Shown here one piece after another: positions 1-22,108 of a stretch of DNA of 22,832 bases (the first letter of the stretch is position 1; each line of letters starts with the position of its first letter). The stretch covers positions 1 through 22,832 of IMG/VR virus record IMGVR_UViG_3300043446_000211; one strand, given 5' to 3'. The notes below the pieces were generated by a model. It searched no databases. It saw nothing but the letters and a program-made list of their open reading frames with translations, and was not told the DNA's origin. A program made the translations under genes and the position numbers. This stretch comes from a virus.

Positions 1-3000
1 GTTAGTATTAACTTCAGTTACAGTAATTGTACAATCGTTCTCTGGTGTTGCGCCACCTAACAAATCACCTGTTACGGTGATTGTGTCACCGACTGCATAG
101 TAAGCACCTATAGTACTAAATGTAGCGGCGTATACACCAATTAATTTTTCATTGTAAACAGTGAACTTAGGTCCGATACCATGAGCACTATTCTGATAGA
201 ACTCAGGTTCAACGAATGGTTCTCCGTAACTGATACTAGTACCGGTACTTGAGTCGTTACCTAGTGAGTTGAACGGACTTGGCCAGAACACACCAGAGTT
301 CCAATCTTCAATCTTAGAGTTGTAGCTAGTTCTATCCATACGAATCGTAGTTTGGAACTCACGAATGTTAGTGTTGATAGTAACGCCAACTGCTCTAGGA
401 ACCAATTGAATAGAATAGTTCAATGATAGATTCTGTGCATTTGATTTAAAGATTACCTTATGGTCGCCGCTCAATGCACTGCTATATGTAGTGTGCAACG
501 ATACAACTGGCTTATTTGTCGCAGATAATAATCTAGCGGCAAACTGGTTAAAGCCTAGTACTTTCACATAGTAATAACCACCCATGATAGCGTCTGTTGT
601 GTTACTAGAAACTATTTTAATCAAGTCTCCTGTAGTCAACCCAGTGATATCTACTGTCAACAAACTTGACTGGAAGTTAAGGTCTAACTCTGTGGCTGCA
701 TATTCAAATGCAGGTTCAAATAAGATTTCAGGAGAAACTACATATCCTTCACCCGGGTCAACGACTGTAATATCAATAACCTTGTCACCAGACATAACTG
801 CCTTAAGAATAGCGTTCTTTGTTGGGGCTGGGTACTTAGTAGTATCTACATATGCCGTAACAATCGGAGGGTCAATGTAGCCACGACCACTGTCTAACAC
901 AATAACACTCGGCAAATCTTGATAGATGATAGTGTTAGGGAAGTGACTTGCAATTGTAGTGTTGTTTACACCTCTACTGATGCCAGTCAACATATTCTTT
1001 TCACGGTCAATATGATTGTATGCAATCAATTCATCGTCAATTGTAATTAAACCAGTAACTGGCAATCCACGAGCATTATCGACAAAGATTTTTTGACTTA
1101 CATTAGTAATGTACTTTGTCAAGACAGCAACCGGTTGATTCTTCATAGGTTCTAGAGTTAGACCATAATTCTTAAACCATGATTGATATGTATCTGTCTG
1201 CCAAATAGGATCAGACAATGCATTTTCATAATAATCAACTGGACTACCGTATGTCAACTGGGGAGAAGTATATCTACGAACTGTAGTGTTGTATGTTGAA
1301 GGAATGTCAAAGTCAGTGATGTAACCATCATAACTATCCATACCATCATATGTGAAATAGAATTCTTTCAATACAACATGATATGGTTTTACTTCATTCA
1401 AGTAACCTTCTAGTAACTTTTCATTATCACTCTTATACTTTTCGTACGGCTTCAAACTTCTGATGTTATAACTTACATCAGCCAAGCTAGTCTTGTTCAA
1501 CCATGGCAGATAGTTGTTTGATTCTACATTCTCACTTTGAATGTATTCAAACATCAATACTAAAGCCTTGTTACGATACTCATTTAATTGACCGACATAA
1601 ATTTGTTCGTTCAATGCACGAATAATATATCTGGTTTCTATTGACGGATATGCGTCATAGGATACAGTGTCAAAGAACACATCACCGAAACCAATTGTAT
1701 TATCTTGGTAGTCCCATAGTGTGCTTGAGAATTCGATAGTACCATCTTCTAAGCCAATGCGTGACCATGCACCACTAGTGTACTTGTATACTTCACGCTT
1801 GCCTTGACTGTTCTGACTTACACCGACAATCATACCTTCTTTGACATTAGGTACTTTAGCTAGGTCATAGTAATATTCTACTTCAAATGCAGTTCTTACA
1901 TTATTGTCATACCCAGTTGCCCACCAGTAAACATTTCTCCAATAGTTTCTAGTGTCATAGTCATCACCATATGTGTTCAAGAATGTAACTGAACTGAATT
2001 CACTGATAGGGTATTCTTTCAATACGCGGTTAGCGTATGTTAGATAGTTCTCTAATGCCTTGAACCTGTTGATGAACAAGCCTTGATTAGGTCTTGTACC
2101 GATACCAATTTGTAGTTTCTTAGGTAAGTCTGGGTTAGGGATAACAGTTCCCAACTCGTCTACACCCGCAAAGCTAGATAACAACTTGTTATACAATGCA
2201 GCTGGTTGTTTGTAATTGATACCATCAGGAACTCCATCCAAGAAATCATCTGGGTAGTTAGTACGAATCAACTTAAACTCTGCATGATTAGGAATGTCAA
2301 TATCATTTGTACTGAAGCCTAAGTGCATGTTTGTGTGTGTACTGTAGATATAATCTCTAGCATTGTACAATCCATATACATTAGGCGCTAATGCGGCAAA
2401 GTAACTGATACCTGAGTTCTGCGGGTTAGCAATATATTGTGCAATAACTGCATCAGTCAATGTCTTGCCCTGTAAGCTGAACAATGTCTCAGTATTGCGT
2501 ACCCAATAGTAATACTTGTTAACCAAATTACCACCGGCGTCAGTTTCAAATCCTGTACTGTATCGTGTGAAGTCATACACATCACCTTTACCGGTGTAGA
2601 ACGCAGGTAGTACATCAGATTCAATCCAGCTATAGACTGTTACCGTACTTCCAGGGAACACAGTACCCCAGTACTTAGCGTTGTATGCTAAATCATTCTG
2701 ATGATAGTTGATGAACTTAGTTGTAGATACATCGAACCAAATCTTACCAATTTCGTTCTTGCCCCATACCATGCTACCCATTGCATTAGCGTTGTTATAG
2801 TCTGCAGGATCTACTGATGTAATATAATCAATGTTCTCTCTGATTGGGCCTAACAATTTGCCTTGCAACGGATCCAAGTAGTCTAATGACGCTAATGTAA
2901 CATCAGTGATGTTATCATATAACTGAACTTTTTGAATCTTAGTGATATCGGTTACAGTAGTTGACTTTCTGTATACGCTCCAGTTTTGAGTTCCCGCAGT

Positions 3001-6000
3001 GTTTTCATATATAGTCACACGACCATGTGTTGACCCTACTTTATACAAAGGAGTACCAATCATTACTTTACCCTTGTAGAAATCTAATGCTTGACCATAG
3101 TATGGTTGTTTGCCATAGACTTCTGACAAGTCAGGTAATGTCTGACTGTATACATAGTTACTTGCTGTCAGCAAGGTCTCCCCATTCGATGGTAAGTAGT
3201 CAAACATGTAGACTGCTCCTGCATCGTGGTAGATGTCTTCAAACTGAGTAAAGTTATTATCAAAAACAGTATCGTTATGGTTGTTCTCATCATCTGTAAA
3301 ATCAAAAGTAGTTCCTAAATAACGGTTAGCTGCCGGAGCACTAACTACGAACGAGTTTTGCTCATTGAACTTTACTTTGTAACCGAATTGAGTTCTATTG
3401 GACTCATGTGGATCGTATATCACTTGAACTTTAATGTATTCTGCGATGCCTAGTTCTGCTAGAACATTACCATTGAACACAGTGATGTTTAGTTTGTTAT
3501 TAGGTTGACCTAAATTAAAATCACGCAAACGAATTACCAAGCGGTTATCTTCTGTTGCATACGCAAACACATTGTTGATAACTGCCAAGTTAATTCTATT
3601 AGCAACATAGAATGCGTCACCCACAATGCCACCGGATACGCTTGGGTCAGGTAATGTAACTGAGTAACCATTAATGAAAATAGTAGCGGCTTCTAATACA
3701 TGACATTGTAGAATACCTGTGATTCTACCATAGTGTTTACCTTCGCTCAAGTATCTGAACACAGCACCTTCACCGTGTGTTGTATCTAGATTGAACGGGC
3801 TACCAACTAGCAACTCGCTACCGCTAGTATTACAATCCAATGACCAACCAAACTTAGCATTAGCATCAATATCTTCAACACGGTCGTAGCTTGCAATTTC
3901 TTGAGTAAGAACCATATTGCCACTGCTTACTTTAATGATATCGCCGGACTGTAGCATAGGTCCTATTAATAAGAACATGCTGTCAACATAATTGTCATTG
4001 TTTGAATCGTTAGGAATCAATAAGAAGTATGTAGGGTCTAACATCACATCGTTAATAAACACACGAACTTTGTTAGCGTCAGCAAAACCTGCAGCAGGAT
4101 TTTGTTGTGTTGGGGTTGGTACCCAGCCAGCGGCCCAAGGCATTTCAAACAATGCAAATTGGTCTGGTAAACTATCTCCTACTACTTCCCAGTTTTCCAC
4201 TAAACGGTCGAACATGAATGTGTAACCTGTGTTAGGAAGTTGTTGACTGAAATCTGATTGAGGTGAACCAACAAACAACTTAGTGCCGTCGTAGTTAGTT
4301 GCGATGCTATGACTGAACAAGTCAGTTCCGTTTGCTAAACCTTCACTTGAGATGCCACCTAAGATTGAGTAGCTTATTACTCGTACATACATAGGAGTCA
4401 TTGATCCTACACTGTAAGGGATATTTTCGTAAACATATACAGTGGTAGTGTCATTTTGACTATTGTACTGGGCAGTAACTATCGTATACAAATCGTCATT
4501 ACCGAAGTTAGTAAATGATACTTTTCTTCCAGCCGGCGATTGGCCAATGTTTCCATATACTGTGAATGATGATGAATTAGGTCTGATAGCTTCTGCTAAA
4601 CGAACACCAACATCATACCATTCGGTATGAGGGTTCAAGTGCAATGAAACTACAACGTTCAAGTCAACAATACTTGCATATAGCATAGTACCGTCACCGG
4701 ACAATGCTAATGAATCACCCACACGCAATCCTGCAAACGGAATAATTTGTTCTTCTACTAATGCATGAATCTTATCATTGCTAATCATTTTGTAGATATA
4801 CAATACACTCAAATCACCGAACGGATCAGGTTGAGAGATGACCATAATATCATCGTTCTTTACCATCGCAGTACCAAATCCCTGTTGTTGAGTTATAGTT
4901 TGGATGTTAGCAAAAGGATGTGTAGATGAAGCTGTTTCTAGGTATCTGTATACTTTACCGTGGTCTGGGTCTGCTACAAAATAGCCTAGCTTTTCACTGT
5001 ATGCTACTGTTGCACCAAACTCTGTTGTGTTAGGTGCTGTTTCGAATTCTCTGTATTCGTAATTGTTTGTTTTACGCAATACATTCCATTCGCCATTAAG
5101 GTCTTTGTCAACCCATACTTTATTCTTAACATACTCTGCATTAGTTAAAGGTAAGTTGACGATATCTTTGGTGCGTTCTACACGCTGATTCACTAACGAG
5201 AATGCAATGTTGCCACCTGAGCCTGTTACTTTTGTAGTTGCAGAATCTAGCGTTAGTACAACGATTACAACATTCGTACTTGCGATGGCTGCAACAGTAT
5301 AGTAACCGTTGATTAAAGTGTTATAGTTGATGATACCAAATGGATCACCTTCTGATAGACCATGCGGTGTGTCAAATGTAAATGTAGCAGTGTTGTTTAG
5401 GTTATTGATTACTGAAACCAATCTAGCTGTCAATGTGACAGGTGTGTATACTTTCCATTCACCGACTTTATCGGCTACCCAAATATAATCGTTCTTATAC
5501 AAGTCTACAATACTTGCATTGTCTAAGTTATCAATATAGTAACCAGTATAGCGAACATCATCTAAACTTACATAACCAGCACTTGGTAACTTGCTTTCGC
5601 TAGTTGATAAAATGCTAGGTAAAATGTTAGTGTTGTTTACTGCATAGTTGTAATTCTTCAATTCATACAACTGTACTTCTTGTTGTGCAACATCAACTGA
5701 ACTGCCATGAACAATACTTACGATAGAAGGATTACCTGTCAATTCACTTTCGTTTAATGTGAACTCTACAAAGTTTCTATTCAATAGACCACCGTACTCG
5801 CTAGTCTTGATAGCCCAGTTTTCATGGAATGTATATGTTAATGGTGTTTGTTGTAGGTTTGCACCTAACAATGTATTGAAAGAATCAATTGTACCTTTAC
5901 TAGTAATGATACTCTTGTACAAGTTAACCTGTGTGTTGTCATCTAAGTTAGCTTCACTTAGATATGCTCGTGGTCTGTAGCCAATCAAGCTAAAACTTAA

Positions 6001-9000
6001 CAAGTCAGCATCGTTCTTCAAGTTAGCAACATTGGTGTTGTAATACAATGTAGATTCATAAGCCTTTGTACTAGGGTTAGGCAACAAGCCCTTTTGAATT
6101 TGTTCGTATGAGGTCTTATTCCATTCTTCTTTGTTAAACTTAACATCAGGTGCAATAGTTACTTTGTTAGCAATCCAATATTCGTTCTTGTACTTGACGA
6201 TTGTACCTTTAGCATACTTCTTATTCTCAACCCATTCTTCAATGTTGTCTTGGTTGATAATAAAGCCAGCAGCATTCATTGTGCCGTTCCACTCAGCCGT
6301 CTTAGAACCCTTAACATAGATACGCTGTTGGCGTAGACCAGTAACTAAGTTGAACATTACATCGTTGAAAACTGTTACATTATCAAAGATTACCAAGTGC
6401 TCAATTGTGTTGATATTACAACGCATGAAACTGATAGAGTCACCTTGATTCAATGCCTTAGCACTGAACTCAGTTCCAATTCTAGTGATTGACAAATCTT
6501 TGATAGAGATTGGTAACAAGTTTTGATTCAAGATAAAGTTATCTTGGTAAACTGTCAATGGTTGTACAATGCCATACTCGTTATTGATAGTAATCTGATT
6601 AGCAGATGGGTTAACGTTAACTGTACTACCTTCTGCCCAGCCACTAGTACTCCAATATAATACTTCAGCAACCATTTGAGTCCAATTCATTTCCAATGCA
6701 TTTTCTACATTGTTGAATGTCATGCCCTTTGATTCTAAGTATGATCCATAGCTAGTAAGGAAAGTACCTACATCTTCTATTCTTCTGAATTCTGTTCCGT
6801 AAGGAATTATCTCAGGATTCTTACTGTAGTTCTTGGGAATCGTAACTGTTCTATTATTAACAGTAATGTTTTCGTAGATACCATTTGTGATAGGTTTGTT
6901 GATTACAAAATATGCTCTATCTTGGCTGTTACCGTATACCTTGTAACCCGATGAAGTTTTCTGAATGATTACAGAACTGTATATAACGCTGTCGTGCGGT
7001 TGATTCTCGTACAACAATATTGAATAGCTTTCATCAGGAATCAACAAGCTATTGTTCTTGCTGTTAGGTGAACCTTTTTCAGCAAAGAACTTTAACATTT
7101 CTTTGTCACTGAAACCAGCAACACGGTAACTCAATCGTACATCGATGTTCTGGAAGTAGTCAGTAATTTGTTGTGTGCCGTTAATGCCATACTGATTTAG
7201 ATAATCAATAATCCAATTCATATAACTATGCGCGGCAGTAGTAGCATCACCACCATACAATGCTAAGTCAGCAGGGGTACCTCTTAGTCTGTCGTAAACT
7301 AAGTATTGCTTGAATTCGTCATTGTATTGGTAAACATCCAAGTCTAAACCCAATGCAAAGAACTGTGCGGGCTTAGTCAATGCGAATATACGCATTAAAT
7401 CAAACGGCCATGTAGAGCTTCTCAAGTAACTGTATTCGGCCGGTCCTACATCACCTACTGCCCATTCGTGTTTGAATGTATTCTTGTCGTATGAATTGAC
7501 TACAGAAGTGAATGGTGATACCAATCTTCCTCTAGTGTCAACTGGTATAACATTCAATAAGTCTGGACGAATACGCTTAGTGTTTATAGTGCTGTCACCG
7601 TTATTCCAAATATAACCTTTGCTAATATCTGTCCACAATAACAAGTTGTCGCTTGTATAAGGTGCTTCACCGTAGCGGGCATCCCACCAATCAGGTTTGT
7701 TAGTGATACCCAACATTTCCCATGGACGAGTGTCAGGGTTAGTTGTGTCATACATCCACTGATAGATGCCGCGCCAGTTGCCTTGCTTCAACTTTGTGTT
7801 GTCTAACTTGTTTAGTGATTCACTATAGTTCCAAGTGAACTCGTTTGTAGAATCATAGAACTGCTCTACATAGTTAATTCTGTTCATACCCACCCAGTTT
7901 AAGAACTGTGTTGAATAGATTTCAGTCAATTCTTTGTGTGAATAGTCTGTTGTTCTAAATTGTCCTGGGAATATGTCATCATATTCTAATGGAATTTTAG
8001 CAACAACTTTCAAGTTATTGTAGATACGAGTTTCAAACTCTAATAGAATCCTATCTCTGAAATCTACTAAGTAACCATCTTCATACTCTCCGTACAACTT
8101 TGTGTACGAGCCATCGTGACCTCTAATGAAGTATGTAGGTGTTACGAATGTTGTGTCTAATACTACCTCAGGAATAGATGCAGGATACAATCCCATTTTA
8201 GTAGGAGTGTTAGGTACATAACTACCATAAGTCTGTGAATACTCTTTGACTGTGATAGTGTCGTTAGGAAGCAAGTATGTATTAACATACAAATGCTTTT
8301 CTGTTGCACTTATTGTATAGTCTTTGTTTCTCACCAACTGCATAGTGCGTTTAGTACCGTTAACTGTTCTAGTTAAGTATACTAACACGCCATCATAGTT
8401 TGCTACTGTAAAATCATATACTTTAGACAATGGATAGTTTGACGCATTGATACCACTCTTTAGTGTGTATGATTTTTGAGTTAGAGTACCCTTACTAGGT
8501 ACCATATCACTCCAGAAGAAAGAACTAGAGTCAGTTTTGATAGTTGTAATCTGATCCAGCACATCATCTAAGATGTCGGCATCAGTTTGTAACGGGCTGT
8601 AGTCTGCTCTGTTTACCGTATCCATCATCAATGCTTTGTACTTGACATACTCGGCCGCATTATACTTCAATGCTGTGAACAAATTGTTGTTAGAGTTCTT
8701 TAAGAACAATGCACCTGCAGTTAATGGAGAACTAGTTTGTACAATACGAGTACCATATGGTACAACATTACCCAAATCTCTATAGTTGTTTGGACCGAAT
8801 GCCGCACCTGATATTGATGCTAGGTTATTACAAATACTCTTATAGTGACCTCTCAAGTCGCCCAAGTTAACATTAGCGACTGGCTCATTTAATGGGTTAT
8901 GGTCAAAGTTTGATGGGATTTGATAGTAGGCAGTTCTCGAAACACTATCACTATAAATTAGAATTTCGACCGGTGTGCCTGTCGCGGGACTTGTAGTTAA

Positions 9001-11856
9001 TGTAACTATAGTCTCATCATCAATTACTTCGTATGTGTACGCAGATGTGCGTTGGTTATCAACATAAACAGTTATTACAGGCCATGTAGTATCTGCTTGT
9101 AACTTAGCTGGTACATCGCATACTAATTTACCGCCCTTAAAAATCAAGTTGAATACTTGATACTGAAATGATTTTTCTACTGCTGTTTGCCAACCGATAG
9201 CACGAGTATATTCTGTAGTAGAAGTGTAAGACTGAACAAATCCAACATTTGTAGATAGTGTATATGATTGACTATTATATACAAAGTTAAACTTGTCAGA
9301 ATTCAAACTAACATTGAAACTAATGTCGCCGATGTTAGTGATAGAACTATATTGAATTGGGAATCCTAAGACAGGATCATCTGCACCAGTGCCAGTCTTA
9401 TATTCAAACAAGGTAGAACCAGTGAAGTCAGTACCGGGGTAGTAAGTAGAGTCACCAAAACTCATACCGTTGTTATCAAATACATCAAACTTAGGTGGTT
9501 GATTTACATATTTTTTATATTGTGTTTCTTTCCAATCATTACCATCGAAATAGTAACTATGACCTTGATATTGTTCACCCTTAACAATTACAGTTTGCTC
9601 GTTGAACACGACGTCACCGTCGTATGCTTTACTCAACGAAATGATAGCAGGTTCGTTTGGTTTTAGTTTTACAAAACTAACAACAAAGATTTTGTTTCTT
9701 ACATTAGGATCAGTGTCGCCTGCAAAGATAATTCTTGCACCATCGAACAATGAACTCGTAGAACCATCGGGTATATATTCTGCTTTACCTGCTACTTGGT
9801 TGAATGCATCGGTTGTAGCGAAATTTATGTAATCTACCGGAGCCTTGCCAACCGCGCCTGCATTGAACAATTTCAAGTTAGGATAGAATTCAATGATAGG
9901 ACGCTTTGCTCTAGCTGACGCACTATTCAACGCGGCAATTACTAGAGGACTATTTGGGTTGCTAGCAAGTGTTTGATTCAATACTTCAACATGGAACCAT
10001 CTGTTACTGCGTGACCATGCATTCTTGCTAAGACTATTACGATTAATAGTAATATAGTCCGGTGTAAACGGAACTAACAATGCATTACCATATGCGTCAG
10101 TGTCGTATGCTACTTCATCGAATGGGGCAAAGAAACCTTGACCGAATGGTTCAGGGACTAGTTGTTCGCTTACTGGTAACAACGCAATACTTGTGCCGAC
10201 CCCTTCGACATAGTAATGGTCTTGTTTGTATTTTACAGGCGTAATGTTACCGTTGAACTTAACTTTTAATCCGTTAGTGAATTTGATGCCGTTAGGGCTT
10301 GTGTAAGTTTTCTTACCAATAATGTCATTAACATTAATGATGTTGCTGTTTGGATTATCTACTAACTTGATAATACCATATTGGTCAGGGTTAGTGCCAT
10401 CTTGATAATACAATGTATCTAAGTTAGCAGTAATAATAGGAATTAGCAATATTTCATTGTAGCTATTCTTAACAAAGTTGCGAGTTACATATTGAGTACC
10501 ATAACGGATAGTAATTTTTTGATTGTCAGGTAGTTTGTTGTACTCTGACAAGCTAATAACCGGATCGTTATCTTCACCCGTAATATAGGTAATCAAATAG
10601 TAGTTGCTGTTTGGTGTAGTATATGTACCTTCTTCCAAACCACCTTCATTGATAGTTACAGTAAATGTGTGGTCGTTGACTGCATCATCTAACTCTAGTA
10701 ATGGACCACCCGGTTCTTCACTGATAGTAAATGTTGTTTCATCAATAACTTCTTTGACATAGTATACTAGTTTTTCTGTTATGCCACCTATTGCAATACC
10801 TTCAAATATTATTGCATTGTTTGCTCTAAAGTTAACAGTAGAATCACAAGTAATAACACTGTCAGTAATAGACACGATGTTAGTTGTAGTAGGAATGATA
10901 GCGCCCGGTGCGTCAGTATCAAAGCCATACTCACTAAAGAAGTTGCCCATGAAGTACTTTGCTCTAGGAGCAGTGCCATAGAATATCAATGTCTTACCAT
11001 CTAAACTAGTAACATTGTCGATGTTCTTAATTTCGCTTAAACGCTTGCCATGTAGTTCATCAAATGACAGTGTAGTGACCAAGTCAACTTCCGTGTTACC
11101 TGGATAGTTATTATCGTCCTGTGCGTCAGCTAATGGCACATCAAATGTCATTGTACCAACATCAGTACCGTTATAACTTAAACCAAAAATTTCTCGTGTG
11201 CTGATATTTGAACGCAACTTACCGTAACCGCTTATACCAGGTTCTGTTTGAATATAGAACTTAGTGTTTTGATCCAACACGAAATCGTATGAACCACCAC
11301 GAACTAATGTTACTACTGGGTTAGGTGTGTCAAATCTGAATAGGTCGGCAGAGTATGTATATTCAATGTTGTTACTAGAGATAGTGAATGCACCTGACTT
11401 GAACAAGTTGTCTGTTTCGACGTTAACTGGTTCTGGACCTTGTGGCAACCAGTAGTACTGGCTATAGTTAATCATCTTGTCTAGGTCTGCAAAGCTATCC
11501 CATGAATAGAATTCGCCACTGAATAGTTTATTGTGGTTATCTGATATACCGCCTTCGTTTCTAATTGCATCAATTAGTTCTGGATAAGTGATAGCATCGT
11601 AAGGTACTAATGTATCTTTCTTTTTAAATACAACCGCAGGCTCTAGCTGATAATCTGTTCTAGCTTTATTTGGTTCTACGATATATGAATCAGACGCACT
11701 AACCCCGTAACCAAACTTGCTACCAATATAACCCTGAATCTTTGAATAGTTTGGGGGTTGTACTAGCTGGTCTAGCGTTGCCGATAGAAACTGTTGATTA
11801 GATGGTGTTTGAAAGATTTCAGGTAAGAAATCAATTGTTCTAACTCTTGATGCCAT
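1..11856 (-). CDS. Giant baseplate wedge/tail structural protein (3' end beyond window)
   Basis: One uninterrupted frame of 3952 codons runs from ATG at 11856-11854 to the left edge with no stop, so the protein exceeds 3952 residues (over 430 kDa). The ATG has an AGGT Shine-Dalgarno (11864-11867, 7-nt gap) and a late-promoter octamer just upstream. The N-terminus (F10-L-P-E-I-F, then F23-L-x-A-T-L-D-Q-L) resembles, from memory, giant structural proteins encoded after gp6 in marine T4-like phages; this is the slot of T4 gp7 (about 1030 aa), so wedge attachment is inferred. Later parts show a CBM5/12-like motif (1875-1912), a PHGL-type beta module (2163-2187), seven FG-GAP-like blades (2280-2952), a V-K-P-Y-H motif near 3490, a T-G-I-S-R-G-V-N-N module (3590-3633), two G-x-G-Y-x-x-x-P repeats (3657-3713), and a V-G-D-T-I-T-V-T-G module at the edge. 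No signal peptide or membrane segment was noticed. The coding call is near certain; the exact role is inferred. Confidence 0.93.
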   Translation of the reverse strand, partial: MASRVRTIDFLPEIFQTPSNQQFLSATLDQLVQPPNYSKIQGYIGSKFGYGVSASDSYIVEPNKARTDYQLEPAVVFKKKDTLVPYDAITYPELIDAIRNEGGISDNHNKLFSGEFYSWDSFADLDKMINYSQYYWLPQGPEPVNVETDNLFKSGAFTISSNNIEYTYSADLFRFDTPNPVVTLVRGGSYDFVLDQNTKFYIQTEPGISGYGKLRSNISTREIFGLSYNGTDVGTMTFDVPLADAQDDNNYPGNTEVDLVTTLSFDELHGKRLSEIKNIDNVTSLDGKTLIFYGTAPRAKYFMGNFFSEYGFDTDAPGAIIPTTTNIVSITDSVITCDSTVNFRANNAIIFEGIAIGGITEKLVYYVKEVIDETTFTISEEPGGPLLELDDAVNDHTFTVTINEGGLEEGTYTTPNSNYYLITYITGEDNDPVISLSEYNKLPDNQKITIRYGTQYVTRNFVKNSYNEILLIPIITANLDTLYYQDGTNPDQYGIIKLVDNPNSNIINVNDIIGKKTYTSPNGIKFTNGLKVKFNGNITPVKYKQDHYYVEGVGTSIALLPVSEQLVPEPFGQGFFAPFDEVAYDTDAYGNALLVPFTPDYITINRNSLSKNAWSRSNRWFHVEVLNQTLASNPNSPLVIAALNSASARAKRPIIEFYPNLKLFNAGAVGKAPVDYINFATTDAFNQVAGKAEYIPDGSTSSLFDGARIIFAGDTDPNVRNKIFVVSFVKLKPNEPAIISLSKAYDGDVVFNEQTVIVKGEQYQGHSYYFDGNDWKETQYKKYVNQPPKFDVFDNNGMSFGDSTYYPGTDFTGSTLFEYKTGTGADDPVLGFPIQYSSITNIGDISFNVSLNSDKFNFVYNSQSYTLSTNVGFVQSYTSTTEYTRAIGWQTAVEKSFQYQVFNLIFKGGKLVCDVPAKLQADTTWPVITVYVDNQRTSAYTYEVIDDETIVTLTTSPATGTPVEILIYSDSVSRTAYYQIPSNFDHNPLNEPVANVNLGDLRGHYKSICNNLASISGAAFGPNNYRDLGNVVPYGTRIVQTSSPLTAGALFLKNSNNNLFTALKYNAAEYVKYKALMMDTVNRADYSPLQTDADILDDVLDQITTIKTDSSSFFWSDMVPSKGTLTQKSYTLKSGINASNYPLSKVYDFTVANYDGVLVYLTRTVNGTKRTMQLVRNKDYTISATEKHLYVNTYLLPNDTITVKEYSQTYGSYVPNTPTKMGLYPASIPEVVLDTTFVTPTYFIRGHDGSYTKLYGEYEDGYLVDFRDRILLEFETRIYNNLKVVAKIPLEYDDIFPGQFRTTDYSHKELTEIYSTQFLNWVGMNRINYVEQFYDSTNEFTWNYSESLNKLDNTKLKQGNWRGIYQWMYDTTNPDTRPWEMLGITNKPDWWDARYGEAPYTSDNLLLWTDISKGYIWNNGDSTINTKRIRPDLLNVIPVDTRGRLVSPFTSVVNSYDKNTFKHEWAVGDVGPAEYSYLRSSTWPFDLMRIFALTKPAQFFALGLDLDVYQYNDEFKQYLVYDRLRGTPADLALYGGDATTAAHSYMNWIIDYLNQYGINGTQQITDYFQNIDVRLSYRVAGFSDKEMLKFFAEKGSPNSKNNSLLIPDESYSILLYENQPHDSVIYSSVIIQKTSSGYKVYGNSQDRAYFVINKPITNGIYENITVNNRTVTIPKNYSKNPEIIPYGTEFRRIEDVGTFLTSYGSYLESKGMTFNNVENALEMNWTQMVAEVLYWSTSGWAEGSTVNVNPSANQITINNEYGIVQPLTVYQDNFILNQNLLPISIKDLSITRIGTEFSAKALNQGDSISFMRCNINTIEHLVIFDNVTVFNDVMFNLVTGLRQQRIYVKGSKTAEWNGTMNAAGFIINQDNIEEWVENKKYAKGTIVKYKNEYWIANKVTIAPDVKFNKEEWNKTSYEQIQKGLLPNPSTKAYESTLYYNTNVANLKNDADLLSFSLIGYRPRAYLSEANLDDNTQVNLYKSIITSKGTIDSFNTLLGANLQQTPLTYTFHENWAIKTSEYGGLLNRNFVEFTLNESELTGNPSIVSIVHGSSVDVAQQEVQLYELKNYNYAVNNTNILPSILSTSESKLPSAGYVSLDDVRYTGYYIDNLDNASIVDLYKNDYIWVADKVGEWKVYTPVTLTARLVSVINNLNNTATFTFDTPHGLSEGDPFGIINYNTLINGYYTVAAIASTNVVIVVLTLDSATTKVTGSGGNIAFSLVNQRVERTKDIVNLPLTNAEYVKNKVWVDKDLNGEWNVLRKTNNYEYREFETAPNTTEFGATVAYSEKLGYFVADPDHGKVYRYLETASSTHPFANIQTITQQQGFGTAMVKNDDIMVISQPDPFGDLSVLYIYKMISNDKIHALVEEQIIPFAGLRVGDSLALSGDGTMLYASIVDLNVVVSLHLNPHTEWYDVGVRLAEAIRPNSSSFTVYGNIGQSPAGRKVSFTNFGNDDLYTIVTAQYNSQNDTTTVYVYENIPYSVGSMTPMYVRVISYSILGGISSEGLANGTDLFSHSIATNYDGTKLFVGSPQSDFSQQLPNTGYTFMFDRLVENWEVVGDSLPDQFALFEMPWAAGWVPTPTQQNPAAGFADANKVRVFINDVMLDPTYFLLIPNDSNNDNYVDSMFLLIGPMLQSGDIIKVSSGNMVLTQEIASYDRVEDIDANAKFGWSLDCNTSGSELLVGSPFNLDTTHGEGAVFRYLSEGKHYGRITGILQCHVLEAATIFINGYSVTLPDPSVSGGIVGDAFYVANRINLAVINNVFAYATEDNRLVIRLRDFNLGQPNNKLNITVFNGNVLAELGIAEYIKVQVIYDPHESNRTQFGYKVKFNEQNSFVVSAPAANRYLGTTFDFTDDENNHNDTVFDNNFTQFEDIYHDAGAVYMFDYLPSNGETLLTASNYVYSQTLPDLSEVYGKQPYYGQALDFYKGKVMIGTPLYKVGSTHGRVTIYENTAGTQNWSVYRKSTTVTDITKIQKVQLYDNITDVTLASLDYLDPLQGKLLGPIRENIDYITSVDPADYNNANAMGSMVWGKNEIGKIWFDVSTTKFINYHQNDLAYNAKYWGTVFPGSTVTVYSWIESDVLPAFYTGKGDVYDFTRYSTGFETDAGGNLVNKYYYWVRNTETLFSLQGKTLTDAVIAQYIANPQNSGISYFAALAPNVYGLYNARDYIYSTHTNMHLGFSTNDIDIPNHAEFKLIRTNYPDDFLDGVPDGINYKQPAALYNKLLSSFAGVDELGTVIPNPDLPKKLQIGIGTRPNQGLFINRFKALENYLTYANRVLKEYPISEFSSVTFLNTYGDDYDTRNYWRNVYWWATGYDNNVRTAFEVEYYYDLAKVPNVKEGMIVGVSQNSQGKREVYKYTSGAWSRIGLEDGTIEFSSTLWDYQDNTIGFGDVFFDTVSYDAYPSIETRYIIRALNEQIYVGQLNEYRNKALVLMFEYIQSENVESNNYLPWLNKTSLADVSYNIRSLKPYEKYKSDNEKLLEGYLNEVKPYHVVLKEFYFTYDGMDSYDGYITDFDIPSTYNTTVRRYTSPQLTYGSPVDYYENALSDPIWQTDTYQSWFKNYGLTLEPMKNQPVAVLTKYITNVSQKIFVDNARGLPVTGLITIDDELIAYNHIDREKNMLTGISRGVNNTTIASHFPNTIIYQDLPSVIVLDSGRGYIDPPIVTAYVDTTKYPAPTKNAILKAVMSGDKVIDITVVDPGEGYVVSPEILFEPAFEYAATELDLNFQSSLLTVDITGLTTGDLIKIVSSNTTDAIMGGYYYVKVLGFNQFAARLLSATNKPVVSLHTTYSSALSGDHKVIFKSNAQNLSLNYSIQLVPRAVGVTINTNIREFQTTIRMDRTSYNSKIEDWNSGVFWPSPFNSLGNDSSTGTSISYGEPFVEPEFYQNSAHGIGPKFTVYNEKLIGVYAATFSTIGAYYAVGDTITVTGDLLGGATPENDCTITVTEVNTN
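661..1140 (-). other. Small beta modules near the visible C-terminal end of the giant protein
   Basis: Residues 3573-3732 contain a module with I-T-I-D-D-E-L-I-A-Y followed by L-T-G-I-S-R-G-V-N-N-T-T (3604-3634). Two G-x-G-Y-x-x-x-P segments follow (G-R-G-Y-I-D-P-P at 3657 and G-E-G-Y-V-V-S-P at 3702). From memory, both kinds are common in phage tail and fibre proteins, where they occur as tandem beta-rich units. Their presence close to the window edge suggests that the fibre-like part of the protein continues beyond position 1. Confidence 0.45.
3001..5040 (-). other. FG-GAP-like seven-blade beta-propeller region of the giant protein
   Basis: Seven segments share the pattern F/Y/V-G (or F-S), about 10 residues, a hydrophobic strand ending in V-G-S-P, V-S-A-P, I-G-T-P or V-A-D-P or a weaker form, then usually G-x-V-x-x-Y/F. 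They lie at residues 2280-2306, 2327-2356, 2378-2408, 2514-2552, 2670-2702, 2824-2888 and 2920-2952. The clearest are F-G-W-S-L...L-L-V-G-S-P...G-A-V-F-R-Y and F-G-Y-K-V...F-V-V-S-A-P...G-A-V-Y-M-F. Blade 3 is the weakest. Insertions of roughly 100-120 residues separate blades 3/4, 4/5 and 5/6. FG-GAP propellers, as in integrin alpha chains, have seven blades and often bind proteins or sugars; the calcium loop here is degenerate (N-Y-D-G-T-K, S-G-D-G-T-M). The fold call is pattern recognition, not a profile search. Confidence 0.55.
5041..5520 (-). repeat. Paired W-V-x-D-K-x-G-E-W-x-V protein motifs
   Basis: Two similar segments occur in the giant protein: residues 2121-2137 (K-N-D-Y-I-W-V-A-D-K-V-G-E-W-K-V-Y) and 2244-2260 (K-N-K-V-W-V-D-K-D-L-N-G-E-W-N-V-L). 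They lie 123 residues apart and flank a beta module with a T-P-H-G-L motif (2163-2167) and N-G-Y-Y-T-V (2184-2189). The second leads directly into the first propeller blade. They are probably repeated edge strands or small modules preceding the propeller; the repeat is visible in protein but not obvious in DNA. Confidence 0.45.
6121..6240 (-). other. CBM5/12-like (chitin-binding type) motif in the giant protein
   Basis: Residues 1873-1912 read W1875-x5-Y-x-K-G-x-I-V-x-Y-x3-Y-W-x-A, then P at about 1903 and a closing W1912. This spacing of W, Y-x-x-G-x-x-V-x-Y, Y-x-A, P and W is the signature of the short carbohydrate-binding modules of family 5/12 found in chitinases and in many phage tail proteins. 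It suggests contact with a glycan, or simply a small structural module. The call rests on the motif alone. Confidence 0.5.
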
Positions 11857-11870
11857 GTGTTATACCTATT

Positions 11871-14800
11871 TTATTTATTAATTTGTAGTTCGGCGGGTGT
11901 CAATGATGCGATAACCATAATGTCTGTGGCTTGGGCAGCGTTAACGAAAATCTCATAAGGTGCTGAACGAATCTCATACAAGTCACCGAATGATAATGTT
12001 GGGTCGTTTGGTACTAATACTACTGAGTTTACTAAGTCACCAATCTTGCTGTGCAAGTATGCGCTTAGTTCTGTGAAGTAGAATGTGTCACCGAAGTTCC
12101 AGTTATCGATACTGAAATAAGTGTTCATCTCACTCAATACGGCTGTTCTAATTTCACTATCACTAGCAGTAGTTCCACTTGATTTGATAACCTTAATAGT
12201 TGAACGCAACTGTGGTTCTGCTTTAGAACCAAACAATGGCTTGAATTTCACGCTGTTTAAGATTACACTATCAGTCAACATCTTGTAGTTATTAATTTCA
12301 CTGTATATCAAATTTAATTCACTGATTGTAGGAGGACTAGGTTCTGTTAGCTTATTAGTCGTGTCCTTAATCCAGTTTTGATACTGTGTATAATAAGATT
12401 GTGTAACTACATACAAATCGATAATGTTAGTCGTAGCTGGGTCGATTCTAGTTGTGTTGTTACTATTGTGACGATACTGGAACGCAATACCTTGACGACC
12501 TGTTTTGGCAATGTAATTATTGATTTGAACTAAGTTAACTACATTGGCGCTAGTCAAGTCATTAACTGCTTGATAGAATGTATCTTCTCTATAAGCATAA
12601 TAAATTTGACCAACTGCATATTCGTAGCGAACTAGTGCAATGTCAGCACGGGTGGGTAAGCTGTAGTTAATGTCATTGCTTGATACCATTTGATATCTAG
12701 ACAATAAGTTAATATCAGTGATGCGCTCAAAGAACACAAAGTAATGTGTATTCTTTGTTCCAGTTTTGAACCCTGACAATTGATAGAAGAAGTCTGGATC
12801 TTTAACAACACCAGCGACGTTAGGGTCAGTGCTTGCTACTTCAACACTATAGTCATCAACATAACCATCACTTTCAACTAACTGACCAACGACACTTAAC
12901 TTAGTATCTTTTGGCATTGGATAGTTACTATCAGGGTATGAGTTGACTTTTAATATGTTAACAAAGTCTTGTAGTAACTTACCTGTAGTTGGATCATAGA
13001 TAACATGGTTCTTGGTGAATGTAAAACGCACATTAGCAACACTACCAAAGTAATAAGCAACAGATTTGTATGTTACTAAGTAACGGTTGCTTCCCAAACT
13101 TTCAAATTTTACGAAATATTTAGAATCATCAAATGTGCTTAATGCCCAACGAGTTTGGTTTGCAAGTAAGTTGTTGTTGTAAACTAAACTGAAACTTTGA
13201 TTCAATGTAACTTGTTTGATACATTCTTGAATAATGTCATTTGGTAACAAGTTAGTAAATGATGGCAGTACTGTTGTTAATACAACACCATTTGGAATAG
13301 GGTTATTCAATACGACAGGACCTAATCCGTTGTTCAAGTTACCTTGACCGTTATTGCTGCCGTCACCGTTGACGCTAGCAACGCTTGTCCAAATAAATGT
13401 ACTGTCGCTTGGTGTTGGTAAACCTTCAATCAACTTGTTGTTACTATCAAAGTAATATCCACTAGGTGCAATGAATTTCAACAATGCCCCTTCTGTGATA
13501 TACTTAACATTACCTGTACTGAATACACCGATTGGGACAGGACCTAAGTTGTTGTAGAAATAACCTGTAGATTCTAATGTATTAAATGATGACTGATGCC
13601 AAGCAATTACACCATCGCCGCTAGCTGCACCAATATCATATCGTTTGTAGTGCTGTGTATAGTATTGAAACGAACGATGATTGTTTAATTCATTGTTCAA
13701 TACTTCAGTCAAGAACGCTACAGTGTCGTTTGTTGTATTAGCAGTGAAGTTTGTGTAGCCATCACTCTCATCTAAGTAGATACCGCCGTCATCAGCAAAT
13801 GTATTTGTACTTGAGTATTTTGCGCTTGGATCTAGTAAGTCATAGTTACGGCTTACACCAACGCTAGAACGGTTAAGTGCTTTACTCTTAATGATTGAGC
13901 CGTATAATGTATATGGGAAGTTGTTATAATCTTCTCCGTTAACCATACGATTTTGTGAGTAGTAGCGTTGTGGAGCACGTTGCTTAATGTCTGCTAATGT
14001 TTCACGAGCTTGTGCGTTTGATACTGGCAATGTTAGTTCCATTGTCAATGTCAATGTTTCGACACGACCAGTACGGCTTACATAATCAATTGTTACAGTA
14101 ATACCTTGCATTTCGCTAGGATTGATAGTATATGTTAATGCATTACCTGAACGAACATATGCTGTAAAGTTACCGATTGGGATTTCACCAAACACGCCGT
14201 CGCCAAAAGTGTAACTTACCTGGTCGTTGAATCGTGAAACAATACTAAAAACTTTTTTGTTTATATTAGCTGCTTGTGAATCTTTGTTGTAGGCGTAAAT
14301 GCTTTCAACTTGTTGCCATTGGGTAGTTACACCTGTAGTTGAATCATAGTTATACAACCATGTATCTGTATTATTGATACCTTGAATGTCAATATCAACT
14401 ACTTGACTACTAATCTGTTCTTTCAAATTGAAGTTGTATGTTTGTAATGAACCTTGCTTGAAGTACATAAAGAAACCTGTATTTGGGCTTCCATATCCTA
14501 GACGGTCATTGCGATATAAAATATTGAATCTGTTGTTAGGGCCTGGTGGCAATTCATACAATGAATCTGCATCAACACTGGTTACGCTCACACATTCAAA
14601 ATCCATACTAGTACCGTCAACTGTAGTTGAGAACGGTGCAGTGGCAATAGAACCAGTTGGTGTGCTGATACTATATTCGTCAGTCTTAATATCTAAAATT
14701 GTCTTGCTGTTACCAGGACGACCCACACGCTGTGCGTCAATCAGTGTAGCGTTGACGATTGAGTTAAACTGTTCTTGCCAGTTAGGGTTAGCCGGGTCAG

Positions 14801-15233
14801 CCCACAATATTGTTAAGTTGCTTAGGTTCAACCCGTTAATGTCTTTAACTTGTTCTGTAGTTTGAATAGCTGTAATCTTTAAGTAGCCCTGACCTGTGAT
14901 GTTTCGTTTTGGATTATATCCAACTAGGTTAGCTAATTTGATAACACTGTCTCTGCGTTCAGCAGTGTCAATGAAGTTTTCTCGTGTGTTTAAATCATCA
15001 CGGAAACTTAATGCTTGACCCATGAAAGCCATAACATCAAGCAACGCAACATATTCGCTTGATTCTACATAATCGTTGAAGGTTTCAGGGTAGGTAATAC
15101 GCAAGTAATCCACGAAGGTTTTGCGTAATGTTTCATAATCATAACTTTGAAAATCAGCTTGTTTGTATGTTCTGTAGATTGTTTTCCAATCGTTTACACC
15201 AAATATAGATGATTGTCTTGAACTTGTGGCCAT
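11871..15233 (-). CDS. 6: Baseplate wedge protein gp6
   Basis: This 1120-residue protein carries the hallmark N-terminal gp6 block: F52-N-D-Y-V-E-S-S-x-Y-V-A-L-L-D-V-M-A-F-M-G-Q-A-L-S-F-R, then N-T-R-E-N-F-I-D-T-A-E-R-R (residues 82-94) and V-G-Y-N-P-K-R. In T4, gp6 dimerises and joins gp7 in the wedge core, linking neighbouring wedges into the inner baseplate ring. The C-terminus (N-W-N-F-G-D-T-F-Y-F-T-E-L-S-A-Y-L...) also looks gp6-like. T4 gp6 is about 660 residues; the additional roughly 460 residues appear to lie in the middle, rich in Asn, Tyr and Ser and probably beta-structured. The start is ATG with a modest AGAG Shine-Dalgarno (15243-15246). The TAA stop is embedded in the late promoter of the next gene. 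Confidence 0.95.
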   Translation of the reverse strand: MATSSRQSSIFGVNDWKTIYRTYKQADFQSYDYETLRKTFVDYLRITYPETFNDYVESSEYVALLDVMAFMGQALSFRDDLNTRENFIDTAERRDSVIKLANLVGYNPKRNITGQGYLKITAIQTTEQVKDINGLNLSNLTILWADPANPNWQEQFNSIVNATLIDAQRVGRPGNSKTILDIKTDEYSISTPTGSIATAPFSTTVDGTSMDFECVSVTSVDADSLYELPPGPNNRFNILYRNDRLGYGSPNTGFFMYFKQGSLQTYNFNLKEQISSQVVDIDIQGINNTDTWLYNYDSTTGVTTQWQQVESIYAYNKDSQAANINKKVFSIVSRFNDQVSYTFGDGVFGEIPIGNFTAYVRSGNALTYTINPSEMQGITVTIDYVSRTGRVETLTLTMELTLPVSNAQARETLADIKQRAPQRYYSQNRMVNGEDYNNFPYTLYGSIIKSKALNRSSVGVSRNYDLLDPSAKYSSTNTFADDGGIYLDESDGYTNFTANTTNDTVAFLTEVLNNELNNHRSFQYYTQHYKRYDIGAASGDGVIAWHQSSFNTLESTGYFYNNLGPVPIGVFSTGNVKYITEGALLKFIAPSGYYFDSNNKLIEGLPTPSDSTFIWTSVASVNGDGSNNGQGNLNNGLGPVVLNNPIPNGVVLTTVLPSFTNLLPNDIIQECIKQVTLNQSFSLVYNNNLLANQTRWALSTFDDSKYFVKFESLGSNRYLVTYKSVAYYFGSVANVRFTFTKNHVIYDPTTGKLLQDFVNILKVNSYPDSNYPMPKDTKLSVVGQLVESDGYVDDYSVEVASTDPNVAGVVKDPDFFYQLSGFKTGTKNTHYFVFFERITDINLLSRYQMVSSNDINYSLPTRADIALVRYEYAVGQIYYAYREDTFYQAVNDLTSANVVNLVQINNYIAKTGRQGIAFQYRHNSNNTTRIDPATTNIIDLYVVTQSYYTQYQNWIKDTTNKLTEPSPPTISELNLIYSEINNYKMLTDSVILNSVKFKPLFGSKAEPQLRSTIKVIKSSGTTASDSEIRTAVLSEMNTYFSIDNWNFGDTFYFTELSAYLHSKIGDLVNSVVLVPNDPTLSFGDLYEIRSAPYEIFVNAAQATDIMVIASLTPAELQINK
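11872..11879 (-). promoter_or_regulatory. T4-type late promoter octamer AATAAATA upstream of the giant gene
   Basis: Read on the minus strand the bases are AATAAATA, matching the NATAAATA form reported for T4-like cyanophage late promoters (TATAAATA in T4). It lies 15 bases upstream of the ATG at 11856 and overlaps the last codons and the TAA stop of gp6. A start roughly 6 bases downstream would leave the AGGT ribosome binding site in the leader. Promoter activity is inferred. Confidence 0.6.
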
Positions 15234-15280: not shown

Positions 15281-15727
15281 TTAACTACTGAATGCGCGGC
15301 TTGTTGCTTGGTCGAAAGTTATACTTAAGTTGATTGGGTTATTGAAGGGTGCTACTGCTAGTTCAACTTCCATTAATACACCGTTATCTTGCGGGAATGC
15401 TTCAACTGTGTTCAATATAAGTCTAGGATCCATAGCAGCCATTCTTCTTATTTCTGTTTCCAACTGATATCTAACGTCAGTAGTGTTCGGTTCGAATACG
15501 AATGACCAAAGTGTAGTTCCATATTCAGGTTTGCCTACTCGCTGGCCTTGAGGTATATTCAATGAATTTAGGAAATCATTGATTACCAATTGCTCATCAG
15601 TGATTCTATACTTGCGTGAAGCCTGTGAGGGTTTTACTACGACTCCTTCACCGAAGTCTACCCCGGGTTTAAATAATTCCCTAACTTGGTCTATGTTTTG
15701 TGTAGTAAATCCAACGTATGTTGCCAT
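15281..15727 (-). CDS. 25: Baseplate wedge protein gp25
   Basis: A 148-residue protein of the gp25 family (T4 gp25 has about 132 residues). In T4, gp25 sits at the junction of wedge and sheath, has a sheath-like fold and starts sheath polymerisation; related proteins occur in type VI secretion. Supporting features are the segment D-F-L-N-S-L-N-I-P-Q-G-Q-R-V-G-K-P-E-Y-G (51-70) followed by T-T-L-W-S-F-V-F-E-P-N, where E79-P80 corresponds to the conserved Glu-Pro motif, and a C-terminal strand pair typical of the family. The start is ATG with an AGGA Shine-Dalgarno at 15734-15737 (6-nt gap), preceded by a late promoter motif. It lies 20 bases after the gp5 gene. Confidence 0.88.
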   Translation of the reverse strand: MATYVGFTTQNIDQVRELFKPGVDFGEGVVVKPSQASRKYRITDEQLVINDFLNSLNIPQGQRVGKPEYGTTLWSFVFEPNTTDVRYQLETEIRRMAAMDPRLILNTVEAFPQDNGVLMEVELAVAPFNNPINLSITFDQATSRAFSS

Positions 15728-15744: not shown

Positions 15745-15752
15745 TATTTATG
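15745..15752 (-). promoter_or_regulatory. T4-type late promoter octamer CATAAATA upstream of gp25
   Basis: The minus-strand octamer CATAAATA lies 17 bases upstream of the gp25 ATG. It overlaps the final Ser codon (TCA) and TAA stop of the gp5-like gene, so the same bases end one gene and should start transcription of the next. It matches NATAAATA and its placement resembles the copies before gp6 and before the giant gene. Confidence 0.6.
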
Positions 15753-18700
15753 ACATAGTTTTATTCAGATCCTGCTTAAGAGTAGTTATTTTTTGACAAC
15801 ATTCTTTCCAAGCAGTATTTGCGGCAGCAGTGGCGTCACTGTCTGGACCTGACTTTTGTTTTTCATTGTAATAGGCTACTCGCAAAGTGTCTTGCAAATC
15901 TTCTTGCACAGTCAATTCTGCTTTTATTCTATCATACTCTTTTGCTTGTGCGGCTGTCGGTACTTTAAATACCCCTGCAGGCATACTACCGAATGATAGA
16001 GTTGGAATCTTTGGATTGCCCAATAGTGAAGCCGCCTGTTCTTTCATTTTACTAAAGTCAAAACTATCTGTAGCTACTTTAGGAAGTTTAACATCCACTG
16101 GACCTCCTGCTCCCATACTATTGATTTCGCTATTTAATTTTGCCGCTTCTCCTGGGCTTAGTCCTGTACTAGCAAGTGCTTGTAAACCTGTACCACTTCC
16201 TAGTTTAGCTTTTAGCCCACCCAATGCATCAGATATGCCTCCCACAGAACTGCTCAATGCACCGGTTACACCGTTTACTGCGGCTGTTAGTTCTTTACTT
16301 CCTGGTATGTTTTGTAATCCCGGAACGCTAGGTAATCCTGGTTTGTCAACTGATCCTGATGCGAGTTTTGTTGCACTATCAGTAACCTCACTTGCAATCG
16401 CTTTTACATCAGGGTTCAAACTAACTGCCGATGATACTGCTGCCGCACCTCCGGGTAGATTACTTAATCCACTAGGATCTGTAGTGAAAGTCTTTTGTAA
16501 TGCTGTTACCGCAGTGTTACCTAACTTAATAGCTGCCGTTGGATCTACTACTCCACCGGTTGCTGTTTTTACTGAGTCTCCTGCAGCCGTTAATGCTTGA
16601 CCGAATGTCATGCCAGATTTAATACCTAGACCACTCTTTGCCTTATCAACCATTGAAGATAAACTATAATCTGCCGATGGTGATGCAGGGGTAGCGCCTG
16701 CATCTGCGGCTGCAGCCTCTTCATCATTCTGTGCTTTGATAGCTGTCAAGTTCAAAGGTACACCTGGTTTACCTAATGATTTAAATGCCGAAGTTACTTT
16801 ATCAAATGCTCCCGCGGCTGCACCTTTCAAACCATCAGCAATATTTGGTATGCCTCCTAACACGCCTGTTCCTTTATCAGCCATGTTTGCAGCAAAGTTG
16901 CCACCTGATACCAAATCTTTCGCAGAGCCTGCTATAGCAGATAAACTCTCAGGCATCTTCAATCCAACACCTGCGGCATTTAAATTCAACCCACCTGCTA
17001 CTCCGGTACCTCCTGCGGCTGACTTTATGAAGTCCATAGTCTTAGTAATACCAACAGTTGCAGCACTCATAATCATACCAGCAGTTTGTGTTGGGCTTTC
17101 TTTTCCAGTTAGTACTCCAGTAGACTTTAGTGCGCCTTCCGCCTGACCCAATAATTTTGTGGCAGCGGCTGCTTGTGCAGGTACATTCTTAGCAAAATCT
17201 CCCACAGACTTAACACCATCTTTACCTGTGAATACATTAGTTGGCATTGCTTCTGTTAATGATTTACCCTCTGCAATTAGTTTGTTTGCGGCAGCATCTG
17301 CACCGGGTTTAATAACGCCTGCTTCTGCCATCTGTGTCGGGTTCATTGCCATTGCACCGACTGCGGCAACTTTGGTTCCCTGAGTTTCAACTACACCTGC
17401 TGTTTGTGCTACAGCATTCTTAGCAGGGCCTGTCGCGGCATTAACTGACATCTGTGATACTACTGCGCCCGTTGTTGCTTTATCCATAGACGGTGAAGCG
17501 GCTTGTCCTACAGGTGCTGTTGCTGACACTGCCGGCGATGTTGATGCTGGTGGAGTCGGTGATGCACTATTGTTAACTGCTTTGGCTGCAGGGCTTGGGC
17601 TAGGTGGTAACTGTGATTCGGCACTCATGTCTGTTTTAACATCAACACCTTGACCGGCTGCTGCCCACGGGCTGTGTGCAGGTGCTCTACTTACAATACT
17701 TTGTAGTTTAGCGGGTGCGGCTGCATAGCCTTTCTTGCTATCATACAATGTATCGGTGTGCGCTATTAGTGTTTGTTGTTTTACATCTTCTGGCGTCAAT
17801 GATGCTGAACCTGTGTTCAAATTAACTTTGCTACCGGTGTTATATACAATGCCGCTACTTGATACACTAGCATCGCCTTTACTTGCAAGGCTCATGGCTG
17901 CATCTACTTTTACAGTATGATTGCCCTTAGTTTGTTGTTTGAAAGTTGTGCCAGCAAACTGTGTAGTTTCCTTTGAACTTTCTATATGAATGTTCTCAGC
18001 CGCAATGTTCAAATCTTTCTTTGCGTTGATGTTGATATTGTTGTCAGCATGTAAGTTTAAGTCACCTTGTGTACGAATATTAACTGAGTTACTAGCGTAC
18101 ATATCGATTGTACCTTCACGACCCAATTCAATATAACTTTGACCATTAGCATGAATGATAAACAATGACTGAATGCTATCATTCATCATAATCATGTGAC
18201 CAGCAGATGTTCTAATTCTTACTAATTGATCCTTACCAGTTAAGTCACCGTCATCTAGGACAACACTATGCCCGCCCCTACGACCAACTACTTTGAAATT
18301 CTTGTCAGGTACGCTATCGTCTTTAACTGCATCAGCAATCGTAGTATCATCATATCCGCCCTCATAGATAGGACGACCCGGAGTACTGATACCAAATACA
18401 CGACTAGGTGTTTCTCTAACACTACTACTACCAATTGTACCTCTATTGGGGTCTCTGATAAGACCTTGTTTGTTTAATATAGCTGCTTGATAACTGTGAA
18501 TCGGTCTAGGCTGATTTGTCAACATAGAATTGTTATCTTGCTTTTTGTTTGCGTTGTTAATCTCACCTACAGGCAATCTTGTTGCGCCACCGTATCCATC
18601 AGTTTCACCTGAGTTATTAGCAATAACCTTGTCACTTGAAGCAATAGCCGGTACCATGTGAGTTAGTCCTGGTTGTGGCACACATCCAATATAGTAACCG

Positions 18701-21808: not shown

Positions 21809-22108
21809 TTATAATCCTAAGGCTTCTCTTAGATTAGGTAACTGTGGAATGTATATGCCGGTGCCGGTGACAAAATCAAACATAGGATCTTTTAATCTGT
21901 TTGGATTACGCTGTGCGAACACCCACCACAATTTAGCATCACCGTATAAGTCAAATGCGAGTAAGTCAGGACGCATGTTGTATGTTTGTGTTATTTCCCA
22001 ATAGATGTCTGTTGGATCGATGGGTACAGGTCTATTCACCATGACGTCTAAAAATTCACCGTTATAAACCTTTGTGCTATAATATGGGCTAGTTACATTA
22101 TATGCCAT
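21809..22108 (-). CDS. 53: Baseplate wedge protein gp53 (LysM-like)
   Basis: A 99-residue protein with the compact gp53 signature: I35-Y-W-E-I-T-Q-T-Y-N-M-R-P-D-L-L-A, then Y55-G-D-A-K-L-W-W-V-F-A-Q-R-N-P-N, and F77-D-F-V-T-G-T-G-I-Y-I-P. This is a LysM-type fold. In T4, gp53 joins neighbouring wedges during assembly of the hexameric baseplate. I place the start at ATG 22108-22106 rather than the in-frame TTG six bases upstream. GGAGG at 22118-22122 lies 9 bases before the ATG but only 3 before the TTG, and the ATG shares one base with the upstream stop (TAATG), the usual coupling arrangement. T4 gp53 is longer (about 196 residues), so this is a minimal version. Confidence 0.9.
   Translation of the reverse strand: MAYNVTSPYYSTKVYNGEFLDVMVNRPVPIDPTDIYWEITQTYNMRPDLLAFDLYGDAKLWWVFAQRNPNRLKDPMFDFVTGTGIYIPQLPNLREALGL

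Follow-up and report, generated by a model that had tools for sequence, protein, structure and literature searches.

We analysed a stretch of viral DNA of 22,832 nt (IMG/VR record IMGVR_UViG_3300043446_000211, positions 1-22,832), hereafter the window. Every large frame of this 22.8 kb record lies on the minus strand, and the following genes were assigned:

1..11856, minus strand: giant baseplate-module protein that hosts the propeller; at least 3952 aa, with the frame continuing past the window edge; matches PHROG 10938, 'virion structural protein', at E 4.6e-295
11871..15233, minus strand: gp6-like baseplate wedge protein; PHROG 10646 (E 8e-255), PHROG 219
15281..15727, minus strand: gp25-like baseplate wedge protein; Pfam PF04965 over cut-off
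15748-19056, minus strand: gp5-like hub/lysozyme protein
19060-21807, minus strand: 915-aa protein of the hub region, without family match (no PHROG match at E 0.001)
21809-22114, minus strand: gp53-like protein

The gene for the giant protein comes directly after the gp25 and gp6 genes, in a gp53/gp5/gp25/gp6 cluster, and its homologue in Pseudomonas phage PA5oct (EST35_0128) was detected in virions by ESI-MS/MS, according to the record note. Because the gp25 and gp6 genes adjoin it and a homologue has been detected in virions, we assign the giant protein to the wedge region of the baseplate as a virion protein, which bears out the baseplate or wedge association claimed in a preliminary description of the locus. 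Its full length in close relatives is about 5286 aa; homologues measure 3300-4600 aa in cultured jumbo phages, among them PA5oct, SCTP-2, Atu_ph07, 121Q and Phosso; those on viral contigs reach 6600 aa.

T4 gp7 is likewise a large virion protein whose gene directly follows gene 6 in a gp53 ... gp25/gp6 cluster; it is monomeric, builds a platform for gp6 together with gp8, and binds gp9 and gp10 (PMC3004832). The giant protein, however, is at least four times longer and bears a propeller, and we found no similarity to gp7 in sequence or, with a backbone model of pTM 0.48, in fold. Comparison by hhalign gave no homology to T4 gp7 or gp8 (gp7 probability <1%), and no gp7-like fold appeared among the PDB matches listed for this low-pTM backbone model, the best of which covered only a small barrel and a patch resembling a carbohydrate-binding module. 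By analogy, the giant protein may lie at the periphery of the baseplate. The two covered segments are:

5185..5445, minus strand: small beta-barrel just before the propeller (tentative), residues 2138-2224; Foldseek probability 1.00 to 4hiz
6103..6252, minus strand: carbohydrate-binding-module-5/12-like fold in the backbone (tentative), residues about 1869-1918

In VIA alignments over 76-82 residues, the barrel reached Z 7.8 to a phage endosialidase barrel and Z 8.4 to the FCCH domain of an E1 enzyme. The second patch matched 8fqc_P1 (Z 6.5, rmsd 1.2, 45 residues) and chitin/chitooligosaccharide deacetylase chains (Z 5.1-5.4). Pfam CBM_5_12 gave E 0.06 in the window and 3.6e-5 in Phosso (below cut-off); the homologues of PA5oct, SCTP-2 and Phosso all had E <0.01, again short of the curated cut-off. 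Both structural matches are weak (Z about 8 and 6.5), and the two assignments are tentative.

A predicted seven-bladed propeller in the giant protein

The propeller-coding stretch falls on the minus strand within a single open frame of 3952 residues that leaves the window; a plus-strand reading of the 3001-5040 region was dropped because it has many stops and no open frame. Sequence anchors for blades 1-7 lie at residues 2279, 2326, 2378, 2513, 2668, 2823 and 2919:

2959..5022, minus strand: predicted seven-bladed FG-GAP/integrin-type beta-propeller, residues 2279-2966 (about 2255-2970); AlphaFold2 pTM 0.71
4882..5022, minus strand: blade 1, FGATVAYSEKLGYFVADPDHGKVYRY
4726..4881, minus strand: blade 2, FGTAMVKNDDIMVISQP..VLYIY
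4321..4725, minus strand: blade 3, degenerate, holds insert 1, VGDSLALSGDGTMLYAS
3856..4320, minus strand: blade 4, holds insert 2, FSHSIATNYDGTKLFVGSP
3391..3855, minus strand: blade 5, holds insert 3, FGWSLDCNTSGSELLVGSP
3103..3390, minus strand: blade 6, FGYKVKFNEQNSFVVSAP
2959..3102, minus strand: blade 7, YGQALDFYKGKVMIGTP..GRVTIYEN

The preliminary description had claimed seven FG-GAP-like segments in order. Their number and order agree with the anchors and the model, but some deviate from the canonical form: in blade 3 (VGDSLALSGDG..YAS) the F and the P of the motif are both missing, and blade 4 has FS in place of the FG found in relative L022. These two blades are also the exceptions to the published Cage pattern, aromatic-G-x-P-x-G (PMC3192720), which the other five of the seven match strictly. 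Shuffling the 716 residues of the propeller (n=5000) gave a mean of 1.3 strict matches and reached five in 0.4% of cases; the other 3236 residues of the giant protein hold six, the background density (1.3 per 716). A tighter pattern, FG..(V/I)GAP, which was picked after the sequence was seen, occurs six times in the propeller and nowhere else in the giant protein. Profile comparison between blades was clear for the pairs 4/5 (93%) and 5/7 (85%) and weak for the others. The claim of seven segments is right, but would be weak on motifs alone; the count of seven blades is decided by the structure model. An early motif count of eight was discarded, as one of the eight falls inside insert domain 1.

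We modelled the propeller with AlphaFold2 from 12 sequences, comprising that of the window and homologues from viral contigs (pTM 0.71, pLDDT 68 overall). Inserts 2 and 3 and the loop of blade 6 had low pLDDT, which leaves the true position of the loops uncertain; values of 80-94 were reached in much of the blade core. DSSP assigned seven blades of four strands each, arranged in a ring. The 50 best VIA-align matches listed were all integrin alpha headpieces, with Z 32.8-36.7 over 328-357 residues and rmsd 2.4-4.0 A (mostly 2.4-3.3 A), spanning model residues 64-762; for integrin alpha-L, Z was 36.7 and rmsd 2.5 with 335 residues aligned. Identity to the integrin matches was 16-19%. Foldseek gave a mixed ranking of propellers that includes integrins and, among its first matches, endosialidases; among viral structures an uncultured Caudovirales protein matched best, followed by giant-virus FG-GAP-type proteins. 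The closed integrin-type propeller that the preliminary description had proposed, as opposed to linear beta-sandwich repeats, is thus what the prediction returned, and we consider the seven-bladed integrin-type fold well supported by the model.

Family assignment came through relatives of the window propeller. Pfam FG-GAP_2 (PF14312) scored 13-14 bits on the window sequence, below the gathering cut-off of 23, and PF01839 FG-GAP had no match in the window record. FG-GAP_2 was found in 10 of 12 homologues at E<=1 (best 1.8e-5). More distant phages (L070, L081, L086 and L098) have propellers at the corresponding site, and these scored 38-57 bits (E 1.5e-9 to 2.9e-15), over the cut-off. The suggested kinship with FG-GAP profiles therefore holds in the homologues and far over the cut-off in the same-site relatives, with the window itself sub-threshold. 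The best scoring of these, L070 (E 2.9e-15), consists of seven plain repeats within some 400 residues and has none of the three inserts. A profile of the four same-site propellers matched the window propeller profile at E 2.5e-22 and, in the PDB, integrin alpha-4 at E 1.2e-5. The integrin link was seen only with this profile; with the window propeller as query, neither phmmer nor a profile search found anything significant among PDB sequences. No sialidase family was among the Pfam matches of the propeller or its homologues. The canonical calcium motif DxDxDG, which marks integrin propellers (PMC8023676, PMC3192720) and would be expected in the loop between strands 1 and 2 of blades 4/5-7, is absent from the window propeller, blades 4-7 included, apart from one pseudo-match (DCNTSG), and from the four same-site propellers. 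We conclude that the propeller combines a predicted integrin-type fold with a sequence relationship to the FG-GAP family, without the calcium feature.

The phage propeller thus resembles that of integrin alpha in its seven predicted four-stranded blades, in the FG-GAP/Cage motif of most blades, in structural similarity (Z 33-37) and in the distant link to integrin alpha-4 through the same-site relatives. It differs in its low identity, in lacking DxDxDG in blades 4-7, in being embedded in a baseplate protein and in carrying inserts in the strand 3-4 loops of blades 3-5, whereas integrin has an I domain. Bacterial FG-GAP_2/VCBS-supercluster propellers (PF14312; PMC3192720, PMC8023676) belong to the same repeat family, over whose cut-off the same-site relatives lie but the window sequence does not. 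Phages go unmentioned in these two papers, and a literature search on integrin-type or FG-GAP propellers in phage baseplates found nothing relevant in the library covered. Because the window sequence lies under the Pfam cut-off, its FG-GAP structural label is missed by current annotation.

The propellers of endosialidases, phi11, T7 and SU10 differ from that of the giant protein in blade number and position, and we know of no integrin-type FG-GAP ring among them that is inserted in a baseplate wedge-region protein. Endosialidase tailspikes (4hiz, 3ju4), the host-recognition device of S. aureus phage phi11 (PMC4901313), the T7 tail (PMC6702177) and the SU10 nozzle (PMC9509320) are alike in bearing a propeller in a tail part, but the propeller families and the proteins are other ones.

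Insertion site, inserts and the two faces

The propeller sits between two conserved domains of the backbone:

5680..8223, minus strand: conserved backbone upstream of the insertion site, used as tree marker; residues 1212-2059
2494..2943, minus strand: conserved backbone immediately after the insertion site; residues 2972-3121

The interval between them (2059 to 2972 in the window) varies from 216 to about 1550 residues in relatives with both borders found. In 121Q the flanks nearly abut (1779/1795) with nothing inserted; GxGYxxxP repeats fill the site in Atu_ph07, Phosso, L072, L075, L076 and L085, a LamG-like stretch was recognized there by eye in SCTP-2, and further relatives have other domains. 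This position in the chain (window 2494-5680; equivalents in L009-L013 and L070-L107) is an insertion hot spot. Short W[VI]xxxxxxxWxVx[RK] motifs border it on both sides in many of these phages (window 5071-5560 and 2950-2990); a stretch of T4 gp7 aligns with one of these motifs, not significantly.

In a tree of the upstream domain, built quickly and with some long branches, all 43 propeller bearers fell on one branch (SH-aLRT 99), with all cultured phages outside it. The downstream flank was found in sixty cultured phage records, and tblastn with the window, L063 and L070 propellers detected no propeller at this site in 50,697 phage records; the sole match was distant and in a different Phosso protein. 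GTDB genomes scanned with the propeller alignment contained no relative. Viral contigs of the propeller clade reach 525 kb, and we therefore regard their sources as jumbo phages.

The two faces of the predicted ring carry these features:

4366..4617, minus strand: insert domain 1, strand 3-4 loop of blade 3; residues 2414-2497 (DSSP)
3937..4185, minus strand: insert domain 2, strand 3-4 loop of blade 4; residues 2558-2640 (DSSP)
3436..3744, minus strand: insert domain 3, strand 3-4 loop of blade 5; residues 2705-2807 (DSSP)
3217..3312, minus strand: conserved acidic TxFD loop, strand 2-3 loop of blade 6, on the face opposite to the inserts; TTFDFTDDENNHNDTVFDNNFTQFEDIYHDAG

A four-strand antiparallel blade has loops 1-2 and 3-4 on one face and loops 2-3 and 4-1 on the other. 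Since each of the three inserts (in blades 3, 4 and 5) separates strand 3 from strand 4, all of them lie on one face of the propeller; these are the inserts that the preliminary description had placed at '3/4, 4/5, 5/6' and expected on a single face. Their number varies among relatives. In L054 a clean gap takes the place of insert 1. By HMM, all three inserts are absent from L070, L081, L086 and L098; a sister clade of 12 rows has only insert 3, inserts 1 and 3 occur in L041-L046, and the full set is present in most of the nearest relatives of the window. A diverged insert-3-like stretch was seen by eye in L063-L069, under the HMM threshold in four of five, and L022 and L030 carry additional nested inserts.

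The TxFD...TxFD signature was found by pattern in 34 of 43 propellers; four of the remaining nine carry it by eye in slightly altered form (L041, L063, L066 and L068), the rest being closely related to those four. The pattern occurs in none of 21 propeller-less proteins. The propeller diverges faster than the backbone (for example, 37-45% versus 52-67% identity), which is compatible with simple relaxation too.

Candidate roles of the propeller

Baseplate-region proteins of 3000-6600 residues occur in large phages. The one described here consists of a conserved backbone and a module slot, which in one lineage was filled by an integrin-type propeller that then gained domains on one face. A role in docking or adhesion is probable, which makes the propeller a concrete, testable candidate for such a module. 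The preliminary description had suggested receptor binding or an inter-subunit platform as its candidate function.

We give about an even chance to its being a peripheral interaction module of the baseplate, docked by one face and with the insert-bearing face outward. On this view, the giant protein of these jumbo myophages would be peripheral in the baseplate and carry the integrin-type seven-bladed ring as an inserted accessory module, which would form a rigid disc on the baseplate exterior. The strand 2-3/4-1 face, with the TxFD loop of blade 6, would most likely dock on a conserved virion partner, either the backbone of the same protein or a wedge protein next to it; the insert-bearing face would make variable contacts outward, with a host-surface glycan or protein or with a tail fibre. 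We infer this arrangement because the propeller is dispensable, changes more quickly than the backbone, has gathered inserts on one face and retains a constant loop on the opposite one. The module is missing in 121Q and replaced elsewhere on the same backbone, and is therefore unneeded for wedge assembly in general. The carbohydrate-binding-type folds near the propeller in the same chain, although weak matches, were counted for a binding role.

The main rival, which we rate as a real possibility short of an even chance, is that the propeller is purely a scaffold within the virion, joining wedge, pin or fibre-connector proteins without host contact. Propellers often serve protein docking, the TxFD loop is conserved across the 43 propellers, and the gene follows gp6 directly, as does T4 gene 7, with the gp7/gp8 platform as a precedent (PMC3004832). 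The loss or replacement of the module on the same backbone argues against such a scaffold, as do the accretion of inserts on one face and the faster divergence. An enzyme-like role, as a depolymerase or glycan-processing domain after the manner of endosialidase tailspikes with their catalytic propeller and barrel, is improbable: endosialidases are among the first Foldseek matches, an endosialidase-like barrel lies directly upstream and the conserved loop is acidic, but the best VIA-align fold class is integrin rather than sialidase, the sequence relates to the FG-GAP family and a sialidase Pfam match is absent.

Linear beta-sandwich repeats, or a chance pattern of motifs, would be compatible with the lack of detectable sequence similarity between several blade pairs and with the sub-threshold Pfam score of the window, but we consider this very improbable. 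It is already contradicted by the predicted ring, by VIA-align similarity to integrin alpha chains over the whole length and by the FG-GAP_2 scores at the same site, including that of the insert-free seven-repeat homologue L070. A docked disc whose outer face contacts the host surface or fibres is the simplest reading. In a fuller and somewhat unlikely version, an uncultured jumbo phage lineage acquired the integrin-type propeller once, as an integrin-like adhesion head docked by the acidic loop, and its other face was built up stepwise by host-contacting inserts.

Repeats of the same type also occur in Sinorhizobium phage Phosso gp108 (L109; PV764938.1, 57900-68978, minus strand), a protein distinct from the baseplate giant protein of that phage. 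It contains about 19 FG-x-GAP repeats over more than 3300 residues and apparently consists of several concatenated FG-GAP propellers.
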